Below, one piece after another: positions 2,642-41,881 of a stretch of 44,074 nucleotides of DNA. The notes under the pieces were generated by a model. That model saw only the letters and a program-made list of their open reading frames with translations. It made no database searches and was not told the DNA's origin. A program made the position numbers and the translations under genes. The stretch spans positions 99,769-143,842 of the forward strand of contig JAMPXW010000001.1 of NCBI GenBank assembly GCA_023701005.1, in the 5' to 3' direction. The DNA comes from Burkholderiales bacterium (GTDB lineage: Bacteria; Patescibacteriota; Minisyncoccia; Phycocordibacterales; UBA9973). Numbering within the stretch: position 1 is the stretch's first letter; every line of letters begins with the position of its first letter.

Positions 2642-4798
2642 ATGGAAGATCATCTAAAAGGACTCAATCCTAAACAAAAAGAAGCCGCTATCCACATGGA
2701 AGGACCTCTTCTTATCGTTGCAGGAGCAGGAGCAGGAAAGACCAAAACGATAACCCACCGAATATTAAACCTAATCAAAAATGGAATCGCTCCAGATAAA
2801 ATTTTGGCTGTCACATTTACAAACAAGGCGGCAAAAGAGATGAGAGAGCGAGTATTTAATTTATTAAAAGAACAAAAAAGCTTCCTCGGTGATTCTTTTT
2901 CTCAGGTCCTCGGTTCTCCGGGGCCCCGAACCCCGGCCAGACCAGTTCGAAAAAGTACCCCCGACGAAGCTAACGCAATAGATTCTAATGTGACTGAAAT
3001 TGGTCCTTTTATTAGCACCTTCCACTCTTTAGGGGTATATATAATAAAAGAAAATGCCAGAATACTTGGATTAAATAGACATTTTACCATTTTGGATGAT
3101 GGTGATTCGACATCTTTAATAAAAGAATCCCTAAAAGAGCTCGGACTGGACCCAAAACAATATGACCCAAAAAGAATAAAGGGGATCATTAGTCGAGAAA
3201 AGGGTAAATTTACTCATTTGGCCGATTACGAAGAAAGAACTCATGATTATTTAAGCAAAGCCGTCTCTCAGGTTTGGAATTTGTATGAAAAGAAGAAAGT
3301 AAAAGAAAATTCTTTAGATTTTGACGACCTACTTTTAAAAGCAACAAAATTATTAAAAGAAAACGAGCAAATAAAAAAATTCTATCAAGATAAGTGGAGT
3401 CATATCCATATTGACGAATATCAGGACACAAATGAAGTGCAATATCTCATGTCTCGCTTGCTTTCAGAGAAAAACAAAAACATCTGTGTAGTCGGCGATG
3501 CAGATCAAAATATTTATTCTTGGCGCGGAGCAAACTTAAAAAATATTTTAAGTTTCGAAAAAGATTATGGAAAAGATACAAAAATAATATTACTCGAGGA
3601 AAATTACAGATCTACTCAAAATATTTTAGAAGCAGCAAATCATGTAATAAAGAAAAATAAATATAGACCAGATAAAAATTTATTTACTAAAAATAAAATC
3701 GGAGAAAAAATAGGCCTTTATGAATCTATCGATGAAACAGATGAAGCTGACTTCATCGCCACAAAAATCTTGGAGATTTTAGATCAGGAGGGTTCTCCCG
3801 ATTTTTCGTCCCTGCGCCCTTCCCCGAGTACGGATTGGGACCCTCGGGAAGTTCAAAATCGAAAGAACCCTCCTCATCAAGAAAAATTTTCTAACCTCGC
3901 TGACATAGCAGTTTTGTATCGGGCAAATTTCCAATCTCGTGTATTGGAAGAAGCAATGTTGAGATACAATATTCCTTATCAAGTTTTAGGAATAAAATTT
4001 TTCGAAAGAAAAGAAATAAAAGATACTTTAGCTTACATAAGAGCAGCATTAAACCCTGAAAGTTTATCTGACATAAAAAGAATTATAAATTTCCCCACAA
4101 GAGGAATAGGGAAGGTGACCCTCGTAAAAATATTTGCAAAAGACATTGAAGATCTTCCGATAAAAACAAAAATTAAAATAAATAATTTTTATAAAATTCT
4201 TGAAGAAATAAGAGAAAAAATTGGGAAAGAAAAAGCTTCTGACATTATCAAATATACGGTGAAAAAATCTGGCATAGAGACAGAGCTTTTGGGTGGCGGA
4301 GAAGAAGACATAGAGAGATTAGAGAATATAAAAGAATTAGCTACTTTAGCCTTAAAATATGATAATTTAAAGGATGGAATGGGAATTGAAAAATTATTAG
4401 AAGACGCTTCTTTGGCCTCAGATCAAGACTCAATCAGTATAAATGTCGAAGCAAAAGCGAAGACTCTGACAGAAGGAGGAACTGTAAAATTAATGACTGT
4501 GCACGCGTCGAAAGGACTAGAATTTAAATATGTATTCATCACTGGATTAGAAGATGGACTTTTCCCTCATAGAAGAGATGGAGAAACAAAAAATACAGAA
4601 GACAGTGAAGAAGAGAGGCGGTTGTTTTATGTGGCTCTAACCAGAGCAAAAGAAAAATTATTTTTATCATTTGCAAATTTCAGAACTATTTTCGGTTCAC
4701 GACAAATAAATGCTCCGTCAGAATTCATTTCCGATATACCAAGTGATATCATTGAGAAAGAAGGCGAACAAGGGAGAATAAAAACAATTTATATATAA
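2642..4798 (+). CDS. uvrD: UvrD/PcrA/Rep-family superfamily 1 DNA helicase containing two in-frame palindromic insertions
   Basis: LNPKQKEAAIHMEGPLLIVAGAGAGKTKTITHRI (Walker A), AVTFTNKAAKEM, HIDEYQDTN, GDADQNIYSWRGA, ENYRSTQNIL, VHASKGLEFKYVFITGLEDGLFPHRR, EERRLFYVALTRAK. ATG at 2642 preferred over TTG at 2639. Confidence 0.95.
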   Translation: MEDHLKGLNPKQKEAAIHMEGPLLIVAGAGAGKTKTITHRILNLIKNGIAPDKILAVTFTNKAAKEMRERVFNLLKEQKSFLGDSFSQVLGSPGPRTPARPVRKSTPDEANAIDSNVTEIGPFISTFHSLGVYIIKENARILGLNRHFTILDDGDSTSLIKESLKELGLDPKQYDPKRIKGIISREKGKFTHLADYEERTHDYLSKAVSQVWNLYEKKKVKENSLDFDDLLLKATKLLKENEQIKKFYQDKWSHIHIDEYQDTNEVQYLMSRLLSEKNKNICVVGDADQNIYSWRGANLKNILSFEKDYGKDTKIILLEENYRSTQNILEAANHVIKKNKYRPDKNLFTKNKIGEKIGLYESIDETDEADFIATKILEILDQEGSPDFSSLRPSPSTDWDPREVQNRKNPPHQEKFSNLADIAVLYRANFQSRVLEEAMLRYNIPYQVLGIKFFERKEIKDTLAYIRAALNPESLSDIKRIINFPTRGIGKVTLVKIFAKDIEDLPIKTKIKINNFYKILEEIREKIGKEKASDIIKYTVKKSGIETELLGGGEEDIERLENIKELATLALKYDNLKDGMGIEKLLEDASLASDQDSISINVEAKAKTLTEGGTVKLMTVHASKGLEFKYVFITGLEDGLFPHRRDGETKNTEDSEEERRLFYVALTRAKEKLFLSFANFRTIFGSRQINAPSEFISDIPSDIIEKEGEQGRIKTIYI
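2879..2971. repeat. Palindromic in-frame insertion, family A copy 1, inside uvrD
   Basis: 23-nt arms 2879-2901 / 2949-2971 complementary at 19/23 positions. Core 2897-2953 matches the reverse complement of polA 36862-36917 at about 49/57 positions (manual alignment, one gap). Encodes ...SFSQVLGSPGPRTPARPVRKSTPDEA..., not expected between the UvrD motif 'TNKAAKEM..' and 'FISTFHSLG'. Confidence 0.85.
3786..3874. repeat. Palindromic in-frame insertion, family B copy 1, inside uvrD
   Basis: Outer arms aggagggttct (3786-3796) / agaaccctcct (3864-3874), plus cgatttt/aaaatcg. Core 3801-3860 is 55/60 identical to rsmA 5196-5255. Encodes FSSLRPSPSTDWDPREVQN. Confidence 0.9.
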
Positions 4799-4912: not shown

Positions 4913-5761
4913 ATGAAAGCAAAAAAATCATTAGGTCAGAATTTTTTGAAATCAATTCTCGCCTTAAATAAAATAACAGAAGGTGGAGAAATATCTAAAG
5001 AAGATATCATTTTGGAAATAGGACCAGGGAAAGGAGCTCTCACAGAAAAACTTTTAGAAAAAGCTTCGTGTGTCATCGCTGTAGAAAAAGATAGAGAACT
5101 TTTTATTTTCTTACAAGAAAAATTTAAGAAAGAAATTGATAATAAAAAATTAATTTTAATTAATGAAGATATCTTGAATTTCAAAATATCTTCTCATTTT
5201 TCGTCCCTGCGCCCTTCCTCGAGTACGAGTTGGGACCCTCGAGAAGCTCAAAATCAGAAGATATTTAAAAATTCTAAATATAAAATAATTGCCAACATAC
5301 CTTACAACATAACTGGTGCAATTTTGAAAAAATTTTTAGAAGAAGAAATACAACCAGAAAGAATGGTTTTAATGGTTCAAAATGAAGTAGCCAAAAGAAT
5401 CGTTGCAAACAATGAACCAGAAAGTATATTGTCTATATCTGTAAAAGCCTATGGTGAGCCCAAAATAGTGATGAAAGTACCCGCAAGGTATTTTTCCCCA
5501 GCACCCAAAGTAGATTCAGCAATCATTTCAATAAAAAATATCTCTAGAAAGCTATTTATCGAAAATAAAATAGATGAAAAGGAGTTTTGGAAGCTAATTC
5601 ATGCTGGTTTTGCCCATAAAAGGAAAAAATTATCTTCAAATCTTAAAAATTTAGTGTCAGAAACAATCAAAAAAGATCTAGAGAATAAAAGGGCAGAAGA
5701 ATTAAAACTCAAAGAATGGATAGATATAATTAAATCCACAAATATAAACAAAAAAGAGTAG
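4913..5761 (+). CDS. rsmA: 16S rRNA (adenine-N6)-dimethyltransferase RsmA/KsgA with one in-frame palindromic insertion
   Basis: KKSLGQNFLKS, ILEIGPGKGALTEKLL, IANIPYNITGAI, PAPKVDSAII, FAHKRKKLSSNL. Confidence 0.95.
   Translation: MKAKKSLGQNFLKSILALNKITEGGEISKEDIILEIGPGKGALTEKLLEKASCVIAVEKDRELFIFLQEKFKKEIDNKKLILINEDILNFKISSHFSSLRPSSSTSWDPREAQNQKIFKNSKYKIIANIPYNITGAILKKFLEEEIQPERMVLMVQNEVAKRIVANNEPESILSISVKAYGEPKIVMKVPARYFSPAPKVDSAIISIKNISRKLFIENKIDEKEFWKLIHAGFAHKRKKLSSNLKNLVSETIKKDLENKRAEELKLKEWIDIIKSTNINKKE
5184..5266. repeat. Palindromic in-frame insertion, family B copy 2, inside rsmA
   Basis: Outer arms aaatatcttct (5184-5194) / agaagatattt (5256-5266), perfect 11 bp. Core 5196-5255 is 55/60 identical to uvrD 3801-3860. 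Encodes FSSLRPSSSTSWDPREAQN between ILNFKISS and the NPPY-like IANIPYNI. Confidence 0.9.
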
Positions 5762-21241: not shown

Positions 21242-22495
21242 ATGTCAAAAAGAAATCTTATATTAATGATAATAGTTCTCATAATAATAGTAGCTACTTT
21301 GTTCGGTTATTTTTATATGTATCAACCACAAGCAAAGACAGGGGAGAATGTAGAAGGAACAAATTTCTTTGCTGATTTTCTGCCATTTGGAAAAAGCAAA
21401 ACTACAACAAACACAAATACTGAAACACCAGCAGATATTTCTGGCTTTGTACCTGAAGAAAATCAAACAAAAGATTCTAATTTAAATAAGATATCTAGTT
21501 TTCCAATCGCTGGTTATGGAATATTTATGAAAGAAAAAAATGCAGGAGAATATGCTCCAGCACTAAGGTATGTAAATAAAGCAAACGGAAATATCTATCA
21601 AACCTTCGCTCATGAAATAGACGAAAGAAAATTTTCATCTACTATTATTCCCAAGGTCCACGAAGCTTTCTTTGGCAACAAAGGAGAATCTGTCGTAATG
21701 CGTTATCTAAAAACAGACGGAAAAACAATCGAGACTTTTGTCGGAGCCTTAGAAAAAGAATATTTCGGAGCTGATTCAATAGGAACAAACGATGTAAAAG
21801 GTTCTTTTTTACCAGAAAACATATCTGACATAAGTGTCTCTCCTGATTTATCTAAAATATTTTATCTATTTGAAAGCAATGATAGCGTCATAGGGGTTTC
21901 ATATTCACTACAAACAAACTCTAAAACACAAATCTTTGATTCTCCTTTCACTGAATGGCTCTCTTTTTGGCCAAACAGTAAAATGATAACCGTCACAACA
22001 AAACCTTCATATAATGTCCCTGGTTATTCTTATATAATAAATCCTGAGAGAAAAGATTTTAATAAAATAGTAGGAGAAATAAAAGGTCTTACAACGCTTG
22101 CAAGCCCAAATGGGAAGTCGATGCTATATTCTGATAACAATTTATCACTAAGTATATTAGATATAGAAAATAAAAATACAAACTCAATAGGGATAAAAAC
22201 ACTTCCTGAAAAATGTATCTGGACTAAAACAAGTGACACAATATATTGTGCAGTCCCAAAATACTTAGAACAATCTCAATATCCTGATTCTTGGTATCAA
22301 GGAGAAATATCTTTTTCTGATCAAATATGGAAAGTAGATGTGGCAACAGGAAATACAACTTTGTTGTTAGACCCTATAACATCCACAAACGGAGAAGAAG
22401 TAGATGCTATCAAGCTTGGCTTAGATGAAAATGAAGACTATTTATTTTTTGTAAACAAAAAAGATTCTTATCTTTGGGAGCTAAAACTAAAATAA
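21242..22495 (+). CDS. Membrane-anchored hypothetical protein, beta-propeller-like
   Basis: N-terminal TM NLILMIIVLIIIVATLFGYFYMY; repeating strand segments resembling WD40/TolB-like propellers. Confidence 0.6.
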   Translation: MSKRNLILMIIVLIIIVATLFGYFYMYQPQAKTGENVEGTNFFADFLPFGKSKTTTNTNTETPADISGFVPEENQTKDSNLNKISSFPIAGYGIFMKEKNAGEYAPALRYVNKANGNIYQTFAHEIDERKFSSTIIPKVHEAFFGNKGESVVMRYLKTDGKTIETFVGALEKEYFGADSIGTNDVKGSFLPENISDISVSPDLSKIFYLFESNDSVIGVSYSLQTNSKTQIFDSPFTEWLSFWPNSKMITVTTKPSYNVPGYSYIINPERKDFNKIVGEIKGLTTLASPNGKSMLYSDNNLSLSILDIENKNTNSIGIKTLPEKCIWTKTSDTIYCAVPKYLEQSQYPDSWYQGEISFSDQIWKVDVATGNTTLLLDPITSTNGEEVDAIKLGLDENEDYLFFVNKKDSYLWELKLK

Positions 22496-22584
22496 AATTC
22501 CCCTCTTGAGGGGTGGCTCGTTTACGAGACGGGGTGGAAAATTCATCCACCTCTCTCTAAAGGGTACTCATCAAGAGGAGAATT
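22496..22584. repeat. Palindromic element, family C intergenic copy, exactly between convergent stop codons
   Basis: Terminal IR aattcccctcttga / tcaagaggagaatt with inner hairpin ggtgga/tccacc. Its reverse complement matches uvrB 40997-41080 at about 48/55 positions over the first 55 nt. Confidence 0.9.
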
Positions 22585-23092
22585 ATATTGCACCTATGTA
22601 TTTAATAACTACTCTACGAGAAGGTCCTTCACCTTGTGATTCTGTTTTTATATCTGTGGCATCTGATAAAAATTCATGGACTATTCTGCGTTCAAAAGCT
22701 GTCATAGGATCAATCTCTATATTTGATTTAAAATATCTAGCTCTTTCTGCCATCATGTGTGCTATCGCGTGTATACTTTCAACCTTCTTTTTTTGAAAAC
22801 CATTTATATCTATCAATATCCCTAAACCTTCTTGTTTTTCTCCTTGTTCTAAGCTGGAAGGATTTTTAGTTTCAATCATTCTGCGGGCAATATGATTTAT
22901 AGCAGAAAGTGCTTCACCTCCTCTTTCCCAAAAATAATGAGGTTGGCTTACTTCTACAGAAAACCAAACAGTTTTATCTCCATTTGACTTAAAAGAAGAT
23001 GGTTTATCTTCATCAACAGAAATTTTACTTACGTTTACGGTTGTTTTCTCTATTAATTCCTTTATTAAGTTTTGCATTTCTTCTTTGTTCAT
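22583..23092 (-). CDS. jag: Jag/KhpB-like RNA-binding protein (R3H domain)
   Basis: MTAFERRIVHEFLSDATDIKTESQGEGPSRRVVIKYI (R3H motif); conserved position next to yidC. Confidence 0.85.
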   Translation of the reverse strand: MNKEEMQNLIKELIEKTTVNVSKISVDEDKPSSFKSNGDKTVWFSVEVSQPHYFWERGGEALSAINHIARRMIETKNPSSLEQGEKQEGLGILIDINGFQKKKVESIHAIAHMMAERARYFKSNIEIDPMTAFERRIVHEFLSDATDIKTESQGEGPSRRVVIKYIGAI

Positions 23093-35917: not shown

Positions 35918-38341
35918 ATGAACAAAGATGTGGAAACAACACAAAAGACGATAGTTTTATTAGATTCTCATGCGATCATTCATCGAGCCTATCATGCTTT
36001 GCCCAAGTTTTTATCTTCAAAAGGTGAGCCGACTGGTGCTTTGTATGGTCTTTCTAGTATGTTGATGAAAATAATCACCGATTTAAAGCCTGATTATATC
36101 GTTGCTTGTTATGATTTGCCACAGAAAACTTTTAGACATGAAGCGTATGATGGATATAAAGCAGGCAGAGCTAAGACAGAAGATGCATTGATTTTACAGT
36201 TGAAAAATTCCAGACAAATTTTTGAAGCTTTTAATATTCCGATGTATGATGCTCCAGGCTTTGAAGCTGATGATGTTTTGGGAACAATTGTAGAAAAATT
36301 AAAAAACAATAAGGACATAAACATAATAATAGCTTCGGGCGACATGGATACGATGCAACTTATCGATGGAGGAAAAGTAAAAGTATATACTTTGAAAAAG
36401 GGGATCAACGATACGATTTTATATGATGAAGAAAAAGTTTTTGAAAGATTTAATTTTAAACCTAAGCTTTTACCAGATTATAAGGGGTTGAGGGGTGACC
36501 CATCAGATAATATTATAGGCATAAAAGGTATTGGAGAAAAGACAGCCACGACTTTGATATCAAATTTTGGAACGATAGAAGAAATATATAAACAAATCAA
36601 AAACGATGAGAAGGTTTTTTCAAAGATTGGGATTTCTCCTAGAATAATAGAACTTATAAAAAACAACGAAGAAGAAGCTTTGTTTTCAAAAACTTTAGCA
36701 AAGATAAGGACAGACGCGCCAGTTGATTTTAAAATTCCAGAAAAAACTTTTTGGGAGAATGCAGATTTAAAGAAAATGGAAGACATGTTTGCTACTTTTG
36801 AATTTAGAAGTTTGTATTCAAGATTAAAAATTTTTTTTGATGGGAAATTGGAGAAAGAAAGTTTTGGAGCTGGTCTGGCCGGGGTGGGGGACCCGGGGAA
36901 TCGAGGACCCGAGAAAATTTTGCTTTCTCCAATTTCCCCAGCGAGACTCCAAGAAACAGCTATTGCTCTTTGGATTTTAAATTCAGATATAACTAATCCT
37001 TCTTTGGATGATATTTTGCATTATGCAAAAACATCTTCTTTTGAAGAAGCTGAAAAATATATTTTCAGACAATTAAAAGAGAAAGGCCTGGAAAAGGTTT
37101 ATGAAGAAATAGAAAAACCCATAATTCATATAGTTAAAAACATGCAAGATTATGGAATTCTTATAGATAAAAGTTATTTTGAGAAATTATCCAAAGAATA
37201 TCATGAAGAATTAGATAAATTAACAGAAAAAATTTACAAGATTGCAGGCGCAGAGTTTAATATAAATTCACCCAAACAATTAGGTGAAATTCTTTTTGAT
37301 AAAATGGGAATGAAGTCTAGTAAAAAGAAGAATGCCAGTGGTTCTTTCTCTACGAAAGTTTCTGTGTTGGAAGAGCTAGAAGAAGATAACCCGATTATAA
37401 AAGAAATACTTGCGTATCGAGAATTACAAAAATTGCTCTCGACTTATATTGATGTTATCCCTTTTATGGCGGGAGAGGATGGAAGGTTGCATGCTAAATT
37501 TTTACAAAATGGCACGACAACAGGCAGATTTTCTTCACAAGATCCAAATTTACAAAATTTACCAATCAAAACAGAACTTGGTAAAAAAATAAGAAATGGT
37601 TTTATCGCAGGCAAAGGAAACAAACTTGCAGCTTTTGATTATTCACAGATAGAATTGAGAGTTGCTGCCATACTATCTCAAGATGTAAAGATGACACAGA
37701 TATTTCGTGAGGGGAAAGATATTCATACAGGAGTGGCATCTTTTGTATTTAATGTTCCTCAAGATAAGGTAGATGGTGAGATGCGTCGCAAAGCGAAAGT
37801 TATAAATTTTGGAATAATTTATGGCATGGGTGTCTCTTCTTTAAGAAAAAGTTTGGGAGGCGACAGAAAAGAAGCACAAAAATTTTATGATAATTATTTT
37901 AATCAATTTTCTGGTGTACGTGAATATTTAGAAAGTGTCAAAGTCTTTGCAATGAAAAATTCTTATACAGAGACATTATTTGGGAGACGCAGATTTTTTC
38001 CTAATATAAATTCCAGAATTCCTTTTTTAAAGAATATGGCAGAAAGAACAGCTACTAATGCTCCGATTCAAGGTACAGCGACAGCCGATATTATAAAGTT
38101 AGCTATAAGATTTTCGGAAGAAGATTTGAGAGAAGCAAACCTACTAGACAGAGTACACCTAGTTCTACAGATACATGATGAATTAGTGTATGAGATAGAT
38201 GAAAATATATTACCAAAAGCTGAAGAAATTATTAAAAATGCTATGCAGAATGTACTAGAAAGATCTTATTTAAAATACAAAACAGACATTCCTTTATTGG
38301 TCCATTTAGGATCAGGGGCCAACTTGGGGGAAGTAAAATAG
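35918..38341 (+). CDS. polA: DNA polymerase I with an in-frame palindromic insertion
   Basis: 5' nuclease (LLDSHAIIHRAYHALP, EADDVLGTI, GDPSDNIIGIKGIGEKTA); polymerase (TTGRFSSQDPNLQNLPI, AFDYSQIELRVAAILS, RRKAKVINFGIIYGMG, QIHDELVYEI). Confidence 0.96.
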   Translation: MNKDVETTQKTIVLLDSHAIIHRAYHALPKFLSSKGEPTGALYGLSSMLMKIITDLKPDYIVACYDLPQKTFRHEAYDGYKAGRAKTEDALILQLKNSRQIFEAFNIPMYDAPGFEADDVLGTIVEKLKNNKDINIIIASGDMDTMQLIDGGKVKVYTLKKGINDTILYDEEKVFERFNFKPKLLPDYKGLRGDPSDNIIGIKGIGEKTATTLISNFGTIEEIYKQIKNDEKVFSKIGISPRIIELIKNNEEEALFSKTLAKIRTDAPVDFKIPEKTFWENADLKKMEDMFATFEFRSLYSRLKIFFDGKLEKESFGAGLAGVGDPGNRGPEKILLSPISPARLQETAIALWILNSDITNPSLDDILHYAKTSSFEEAEKYIFRQLKEKGLEKVYEEIEKPIIHIVKNMQDYGILIDKSYFEKLSKEYHEELDKLTEKIYKIAGAEFNINSPKQLGEILFDKMGMKSSKKKNASGSFSTKVSVLEELEEDNPIIKEILAYRELQKLLSTYIDVIPFMAGEDGRLHAKFLQNGTTTGRFSSQDPNLQNLPIKTELGKKIRNGFIAGKGNKLAAFDYSQIELRVAAILSQDVKMTQIFREGKDIHTGVASFVFNVPQDKVDGEMRRKAKVINFGIIYGMGVSSLRKSLGGDRKEAQKFYDNYFNQFSGVREYLESVKVFAMKNSYTETLFGRRRFFPNINSRIPFLKNMAERTATNAPIQGTATADIIKLAIRFSEEDLREANLLDRVHLVLQIHDELVYEIDENILPKAEEIIKNAMQNVLERSYLKYKTDIPLLVHLGSGANLGEVK
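36842..36938. repeat. Palindromic in-frame insertion, family A copy 2 (opposite orientation), inside polA
   Basis: Outer arms gggaaattggagaaag (36842-36857) / ctttctccaatttccc (36923-36938), 16 bp perfect. Core 36862-36917 is the reverse complement of the uvrD family A core. Encodes SFGAGLAGVGDPGNRGPEKIL. Confidence 0.9.
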
Positions 38342-39634: not shown

Positions 39635-41881
39635 ATGTTATCTAAAAATATATTTAAATTGCATAGCCCTTTTAAGCCAGCAGGCGATCAACCCAAGGCT
39701 ATTTCAGAGATTTTAAGTGGATTAAATAAGGGTATAAATAGACAAACCTTAGTGGGAGCCACAGGAACTGGTAAGACTTTTACCATGGCTAACGTGATAG
39801 AAAAATATAATAAACCTACTTTAGTGATAGCACATAATAAAACCTTGGCAGCCCAATTAGCTTCTGAGTTTAGAGAATTTTTCCCAGATGCAGCAGTACA
39901 TTATTTTGTATCTTATTATGATTATTATCAGCCAGAAGCTTACATGCCGGCATCAGATACATATATTGAAAAAGATTTAAAAATAAATAAAGAAATAGAT
40001 AGACTTAGACATGCCACTACACAGGCCTTACTCACGAGACGTGATGTAATAATAGTTGCCTCAGTTTCTTGTATATATGGTTTGGGTAGTCCTTCAGAAT
40101 ATGAAAAAGTTAATTTAAAACTTAATGTTGGAATGAAAATTGATCGAATGACTTTAATGAAAAAATTAATTGGTATTCATTTTGAAAGGACAAATGCAGA
40201 TTTAAATCCAGGGCAATTTCGTTCTATTGGTTCTATCGTTTCTTTTATGCCTGTTTCTGAGATGATGATGTATCAGATTGATATATTAAATGGAATAATT
40301 TCAAGAATTAGAAAAATAGATCCAGTTTCTTCTAAAATAATTAAAGAGGAAAATAATATTTTTGTTTTTCCTGCGAAACATTTTATTACTGAAGATGTAA
40401 AAAAGAAAAAAGCTTTGGTTGAAATAAAAAAAGAATTAACAAAACAGTTAAAGAAATTTGAGAAAGAAGGGAAATTATTAGAAGCAGAAAGAATAAAGAG
40501 AAGAACAAATTATGATTTATCAATGATAAAAGAAGTTGGATATTGTAGTGGTATAGAAAATTATTCTAGATATTTATCTGGTAAAAAAGAAGGAGAACCA
40601 CCAGAGACATTACTTTCTTATTTTCCGTTTTCCCCGAAGCCTGGCTTAGGGGCAGATGGGAAAAAACAAAAGGCCCTAAGCCAGGCTTCGGGGGAAATTC
40701 CTGATTTTCTGACTATAATTGATGAATCACATGTTACATTACCACAACTTCAAGGTATGTATGCAGGAGATGCCTCACGTAAAAAAACTCTTATAGATTA
40801 TGGTTTTCGTTTGCCTTCAGCAAGAGACAATAGGCCTTTAAAATATGAAGAATTTAAAGAAAGAATAGGGCCTGTTGTGTATACTAGTGCTACTCCAGGA
40901 AATGAAGAAAAAACGGAAAGTGGAAAGTTAATAGAACAGATTATTCGTCCGACTGGTCTTGTAGATCCAGAAATAATAGTGAGACCTGTTAGTGAAAATT
41001 CTCCTCTTGAGAAGTACCCTTTAGGGGGAGGTGGACAAATTATCCACCCCGATACAAGCATCACCCATCAAGAGGGGAATAAGTACCCTGGGCAGATACA
41101 GGATTTTATAAAAGAAACAGAAAAGACAATCAAAAAAGGTTTTCGTGTTTTGGCTACAACTTTGACTAAAAGAATGGCAGAAGATTTGTCTGTATACTTA
41201 AAAGAGAAACATATAAAAGCAGAATATTTACATAGTGATATAAAGACGATAGATAGAATAAAAATTTTGACAAAATTTAGAAGAGGGGAATTCGATATAT
41301 TGGTAGGAGTTAATCTTTTGCGTGAAGGACTTGATCTTCCGGAAGTTGCCTTAATTGGAATTTTGGATGCCGACAAAGAAGGATTTCTTAGATCGGAAAC
41401 ATCTTTGATACAAACCATAGGAAGAGCTGCTCGTAATAGTGAAGGAAAGGTTATTCTTTATGCAGACAACATTACGGGTTCTATGAAAAGAGCAATAGAA
41501 GAGACTACGCGTCGTAGAGATATTCAGTTGGTTTATAATAAAAAGAATGGGATCACTCCGAAAACTATTTTGAAAAATATTAAAGACATAACACAGGAAA
41601 TGGAGAGTGAACATGGCAAGGCTGTAAATACAGAATTAGAATTAGATATTGAATTGTTCAAGAAAGTGTTTACAAAAGAAAAGAGTAATAAAGGTAAAAA
41701 TGAATCTGATTCTATAAAAAATATTTTCATTTCAGATGAAGAAAGAAATAAGATGGTTTATGAAAAGATAATAAAGATGAAAGAGAAAGAAATGAATAGG
41801 GCTGTGAAAGAATTAGATTTTGAGACAGCAGCTATTTTGAGAGATGAAATAATTGTATTAAAAGATAAAATGGATAGATAA
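39635..41881 (+). CDS. uvrB: Excinuclease ABC subunit B with two in-frame palindromic insertions
   Basis: [90 protein letters not shown]. Confidence 0.97.
40632..40693. repeat. Perfect 20-bp inverted repeat with 22-nt loop (orphan family D) inserted in frame in uvrB
   Basis: ccccgaagcctggcttaggg (40632-40651) / ccctaagccaggcttcgggg (40674-40693). Encodes [25 protein letters not shown] between YFP and [10 protein letters not shown]. Confidence 0.93.
40998..41080. repeat. Palindromic in-frame insertion, family C copy, inside uvrB
   Basis: Arms attctcctcttga (40998-41010) / tcaagaggggaat (41068-41080), 12/13; inner ggtgga/tccacc. Matches the reverse complement of the intergenic element 22496-22584. 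Confidence 0.92.

Follow-up and report, generated by a model that had tools for sequence, protein, structure and literature searches.

The 87 bases between two convergent stop codons at positions 22496-22582 of the window, by which we mean the whole stretch of 44,074 nucleotides that was analysed, consist entirely of one copy of a palindromic repeat, here named family C. Copies of this family are dispersed among genomes of Ca. Nomurabacteria, and they are tolerated in-frame inside protein-coding genes as well as between genes. Taking the data as a whole, the best explanation, in which we place moderate confidence, is that family C is a non-autonomous, gene-less mobile palindrome, probably once moved by a homing-type nuclease of the DUF559 family.

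The element next to jag and its family

The coding sequence at 21242-22495 ends with a TAA stop codon at 22493-22495 and the family C element begins at 22496, while at the other side its final two matching bases, 22583-22584, overlap the TAA stop codon of jag, which is located on the minus strand at 22583-22585. The preliminary description of this DNA had claimed that the element fills the convergent gap exactly and overlaps the jag stop codon, and this holds, as 87 of 87 gap bases belong to the repeat. The features concerned are as follows.

22496-22584, minus strand (the canonical strand): full family C palindromic element, AATTCTCC...GGGGAATT
22496-22538, minus strand: right half (RH), also found alone and flanking DUF559 genes in relatives (from the alignment and half-copies)
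22546-22584, minus strand: left half (LH), a diverged inverted version of RH (from the alignment of copies)
22500-22513, minus strand: end hairpin CCCCTCAAGAGGGG, followed by AATTTTATTTT on the minus strand (terminator-like for jag)
22515-22530, minus strand: side hairpin h3 (GTCTCGTAAACGAGCC), hypervariable among copies with compensatory changes (covariation test)
22567-22580, minus strand: LH end hairpin, CTCCTCTTGATGAG here and CTCCTCTTGAGGAG in the consensus (from the alignment of copies)
21242-22495, plus strand: 417-aa coding sequence without a family assignment, convergent with jag, synteny conserved across the genus
22583-23092, minus strand: jag/eloR (R3H domain, PF01424)
40997-41080, plus strand: family C copy within uvrB, translated as 28 residues
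39635-41881, plus strand: uvrB, host of the intragenic copy

The Jag/EloR product was assigned by its match to the R3H domain, the score for NF041568 being below the cut-off. The copy in uvrB lies in the opposite orientation to the element at 22496 and is about 80% identical to it, so the preliminary description was correct in calling the latter an inverted copy of the insertion in uvrB. As RNA, the element at 22496 folds with z-scores of -7.5 (plus strand) and -5.3 (minus strand); a search of Rfam with the family C element gave no match.

The host is a tiny, symbiont-like bacterium, and similarity searches of its 692-kb genome returned six matches to family C with E-values from 2e-41 to 4e-13. 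Within the genus, 23 of 80 genomes contain the family at a threshold of E <= 1e-8. The E-values within the own genome, the folding z-scores and this recurrence rule out chance; family C is a real family with multiple copies. When 85,462 species were scanned for an exact 21-mer taken from the left end, 71 stretches matched. Almost all of these are titled Nomurabacteria or Paceibacterota, a few come from uncultured MAGs without a title, and two (L201, L209) are family C copies in one MAG labelled Simkania, possibly by mis-binning. These matches place the family in one lineage, Ca. Nomurabacteria.

The alignment of 39 full copies and of halves reveals on the canonical strand the layout AATTCTCCTCTTGAGGAGTACC[h1]GGGGGAGGTGGA, a spacer of 5-12 nt, and TCCACCCCG[h3]CCACCCCTCAAGAGGGGAAT. 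The element of about 85 bp, which is small and has no coding capacity of its own, thus comprises two halves that are inverted relatives of one another, with terminal inverted repeats of about 40 bp, unit ends AATTC[T/C]CC and GGGGAAT, and a small hairpin terminating each half (CTCCTCTTGAGGAG in the LH consensus and CCCCTCAAGAGGGG); halves also occur on their own. The side hairpins h1 and h3 vary in length and sequence among copies and retain their pairing: in h3, 122 of 147 inner positions are paired in 49 distinct loops, against 94 +/- 3 after shuffling of the right arms (0 of 5000 shuffles reach the observed value), and in h1 all 22 of 22 positions in 11 long loops are paired, against 16 +/- 1.4 in shuffled arms. 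RNAalifold recovered almost no covariation from the gapped alignment because the side hairpins are of unequal length. As they change in sequence yet stay paired, it is the folded single strand that matters and that is conserved, the pairing data being equally compatible with DNA and RNA.

DUF559 nuclease genes between family C ends

In six relatives, inverted right halves bracket a DUF559 gene, and across the 80 genomes family C halves flank six of six genes of one DUF559 clade (C-type), which makes this nuclease a candidate mobiliser. The half-element encodes the start of the DUF559 protein and also its stop, through TTC CCC TCT TGA. Family C elements are found in five of the six genomes with a C-type DUF559 gene versus 18 of 74 without one (Fisher p 0.007, uncorrected for phylogeny). 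The C-associated nuclease belongs to PF04480 and matched 3hrl by sequence; its predicted structure (pLDDT 89) matches the folds of 3hrl and of the homing endonuclease I-Bth0305I (3r3p; E 4e-4, probability 1.0), and more weakly that of Vsr. An E-x-D-G-x-x-H motif is invariant across 44 sequences. A DUF559 domain or unit is also located in-frame in the editing region of LeuRS in several species, beside palindrome-like peptides. The LeuRS of some Nomurabacteria additionally carries inserted serine-hydrolase-like or NUDIX domains, as seen in L257 and L274 and, by eye, in L290 and L317.

The link is an association within one genus, and its six loci are connected to one another through descent or transfer. 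Different inverted palindromes enclose the remaining DUF559 genes of the genus, 25 of 51 lying above the 99th control percentile. When DUF559 loci were sampled more widely in the phylum, 17 of 22 exceeded the 95th control percentile, a weaker result as the 99th percentile of the control is high there. With other clades carrying other palindromes, a preference of palindromes for such intergenic spots could also account for the flanking position. Against the DUF559 reading it has to be considered that the own genome contains family C while no DUF559 gene was found in it; for want of that gene, the copies in this genome are probably immobile now. A DUF559 nuclease acting in trans probably once moved family C.

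A transposase of the RAYT/Y1 type was our first hypothesis for the mobiliser, and it was dropped. In REPINs, a REP doublet is moved in trans by an IS200-like RAYT (Y1) transposase, and family C, with its two inverted hairpin units and solitary halves, shares this layout; moreover, Y1_Tnp genes occur widely in the genus, two of them in the own genome. However, none of the 75 Y1 loci examined is flanked by a pair of family C ends, the ends do not bear a GTAG tag, family C is absent from some genomes that contain Y1 genes, and the two Y1 genes of the own genome are flanked by different hairpins of their own in direct repeat, which together render this reading unlikely. These directly repeated hairpins are located at 1962-1987 and 2647-2672 of L083 and at 1734-1790 and 2555-2611 of L084; they differ between the two genes and look like neighbouring terminators.

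Insertion sites and the terminator question

The fetched loci yielded 82 unique full copies, of which 75 had flanks long enough to be classified, using open reading frames called by a simple longest-ORF rule. In-frame positions inside ORFs account for 32 copies, and the 43 intergenic copies for which genes were called on both sides comprise 32 in tandem (co-directional), seven divergent and four convergent arrangements. One element type therefore occupies coding and non-coding places alike, as the preliminary description had stated. Both strands of family C keep an open frame, which allows in-frame copies within housekeeping proteins: 29 copies read NSPLEEYP...ATPQEGN and three read the other strand as IPLLRGG...GTPQEENF. 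The host genes include uvrB, tgt, tsaD, leuS, pheT, polA, rsmA/ksgA, purD and uvrD, identified with Pfam/NCBIfam for uvrB and leuS and read from the sequence for the remainder. An AlphaFold model of the UvrB protein of the window reached a mean pLDDT of 52.7, too low to place the insert. Intergenic copies tend to begin at a stop codon, as they do with both genes at 22496; 21 of 40 gene ends that face an intergenic copy lie between -3 and +4 nt from the element.

The locus at 22496 is one member of a recurrent pattern, in which unrelated palindromes occupy common sites. At the uvrB site RPVS-x-YPGQ, seven genomes are empty (exactly 18 nt) and 12 more have 93-120 nt, being occupied by family C in three cases and elsewhere by at least three unrelated palindrome groups; depending on the species, the tgt site before ALFGIVQGG contains family C or one of many unrelated palindromes. 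Of the uvrB and tgt inserts, which form 13 clusters, 33 of 35 fold at z < -2 (median -4.9). The jag gap, filled by family C here, contains other palindromes in other relatives and is close to zero in about 9 of 30.

Several further inserts were observed in the window and in relatives. A second palindrome family (TTTTTCGTCCCTGCGCCCTTC...GGGACCCTCGGGAAG) is located at 3794-3866 (uvrD) and 5189-5261 (rsmA/ksgA) of the window, and in G032 and G008 it occupies the tgt site. Two repair genes, uvrD (2918-2953) and polA (36862-36897), hold a third, inverted family (GGTCTGGCCGGGG...), and an insert resembling it is present at the uvrB site of relatives. A further lineage-specific insert in uvrB spans 40628-40706 (residues 332-357); the alignment shows several positions of this kind, with variable inserts. 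The palindrome in the jag gap of L143, L144 and L165 (G022, G032 and G027) has the core CCGGTACGGATTTTT...CCTGAAG, and inverted flanks that differ from locus to locus, such as AGCTAAAGAAACAAC.../...TTTCTTTAGCT, lie on either side of it, as though the palindrome had been inserted in a host hairpin or were extending one.

That the element at 22496 is retained as a bidirectional transcription terminator of the convergent genes, a function proposed in the preliminary description, is weakly supported and in our judgement improbable. It does form a strong stem-loop on both strands, the jag gap of many relatives contains some palindrome, and on the jag strand the hairpin CCCCTCAAGAGGGG runs into the T-rich tail AATTTTATTTT. 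On the side of the coding sequence, however, the strand continues with AATTATATTG, so that a hairpin with a T-tract was found on the minus strand only. The expected enrichment of family C between convergent genes was not borne out (four of 43 intergenic copies), and 32 copies are located within translated genes. The eight bases beyond the element contain on average 2.3 T for intergenic and 1.9 T for intragenic copies, which shows that family C has no built-in T-tract, and the roughly 9 of 30 relatives without any gap indicate that the jag spot can do without an insert. A terminator that acts in the jag direction only is possible; the terminator idea fits the jag strand only and is not a family-wide property.

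Proposed mode of spread and known systems

A classic MITE of a DDE transposase, the full copy of which would lie outside the sample, would be in line with the terminal inverted repeats, the small size and the missing coding capacity, but this is very improbable, given that DUF559 genes are the only genes found between family C ends and that no target duplication was found, no flank length standing out in a test that is weak on diverged copies.

Under the DUF559 reading, the full element would be a MITE-like product in which the two ends of a nuclease-bearing unit were joined without the gene. The nuclease, with its predicted I-Bth0305I-like fold, would open the target and repair of the break would copy the element in, and the gene-less form would be copied in trans without a detectable target duplication. 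Selection would then keep harmless copies, either in-frame in protein loops or directly after stop codons. The copy at 22496 would accordingly have landed between two convergent stop codons, at a spot where many relatives appear to have acquired unrelated palindromes independently, and any terminator effect on jag would be a by-product. This movement is deduced from the distribution of copies across species rather than from close strain pairs. A broader proposal, which we put forward tentatively and consider rather less probable than its opposite, is that Patescibacteria contain a class of mobile elements built around a DUF559/EDxHD homing-type nuclease, which lies between palindromic ends and spreads gene-less palindromes that are translated harmlessly in essential proteins; the permissive sites shared by unrelated families (uvrB, tgt, leuS and the jag gap) would then be homing targets and not merely tolerant loops.

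The closest known systems are the RPEs of Rickettsia and intragenic REP dimers. RPEs are palindromes of roughly 100-150 bp in several families, which are present in intergenic regions and in-frame in conserved genes, where they are translated into a short peptide, and for which the enzyme is not known (PMC2229807; PMC10969869); the uvrB gene of R. conorii has likewise been hit twice (PMC3733652). Family C resembles them as a dispersed palindrome in-frame in conserved protein genes, but it occurs in another phylum, is about 85 bp long and has ends that flank a DUF559 nuclease gene. Neither encoded peptide of family C matched NCBIfam including the RPE domain models, and the exact 21-mer had no match in Rickettsia. 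REP pairs are found inside uvrA/B/D, polA and tRNA synthetase genes as well as at positions downstream of genes, those with a CGTC tag lacking a known transposase (PMC3733652). With these GTAG and CGTC dimers family C shares the inverted hairpin pairs and the uvr, polA and tRNA synthetase targets, whereas it differs in its larger and more complex fold, in its DUF559 association and in its unit ends, at which neither tetranucleotide was found.

As in the bacterial MITEs RUP, Correia and ERIC, family C is a gene-less unit of terminal inverted repeats, and in agreement with the MITE definition these repeats are common to a gene-bearing element (six of six C-type DUF559 genes); unlike those MITEs, it is frequently inserted in-frame in coding sequences, with no target duplication detected. 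With I-Bth0305I (EDxHD) and Vsr the associated nuclease shares its predicted fold, and residence in-frame in conserved genes is homing-like; in contrast to EDxHD homing endonucleases, there is no intron or intein, the termini are palindromic and gene-less copies outnumber gene-bearing ones.

In-frame palindromes in repair genes were already known (PMC3733652). As far as the papers searched extend, the lineage, the nuclease bracketed by family C ends and the occupation of one exact site by unrelated families across species are new; a literature search for DUF559 together with palindromes or inverted repeats returned nothing relevant. No enzyme had been linked to in-frame palindromes like RPEs and CGTC REPs, and their mode of movement has therefore been an open question for two decades; a family with ends that bracket a homing-type nuclease offers a concrete, testable enzyme. 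It would also follow that many "lineage-specific insertions" in CPR proteins such as UvrB, Tgt, LeuRS and PolA are translated mobile DNA, which bears on how these bacteria are annotated, on the prediction of their protein structures and on their phylogeny.
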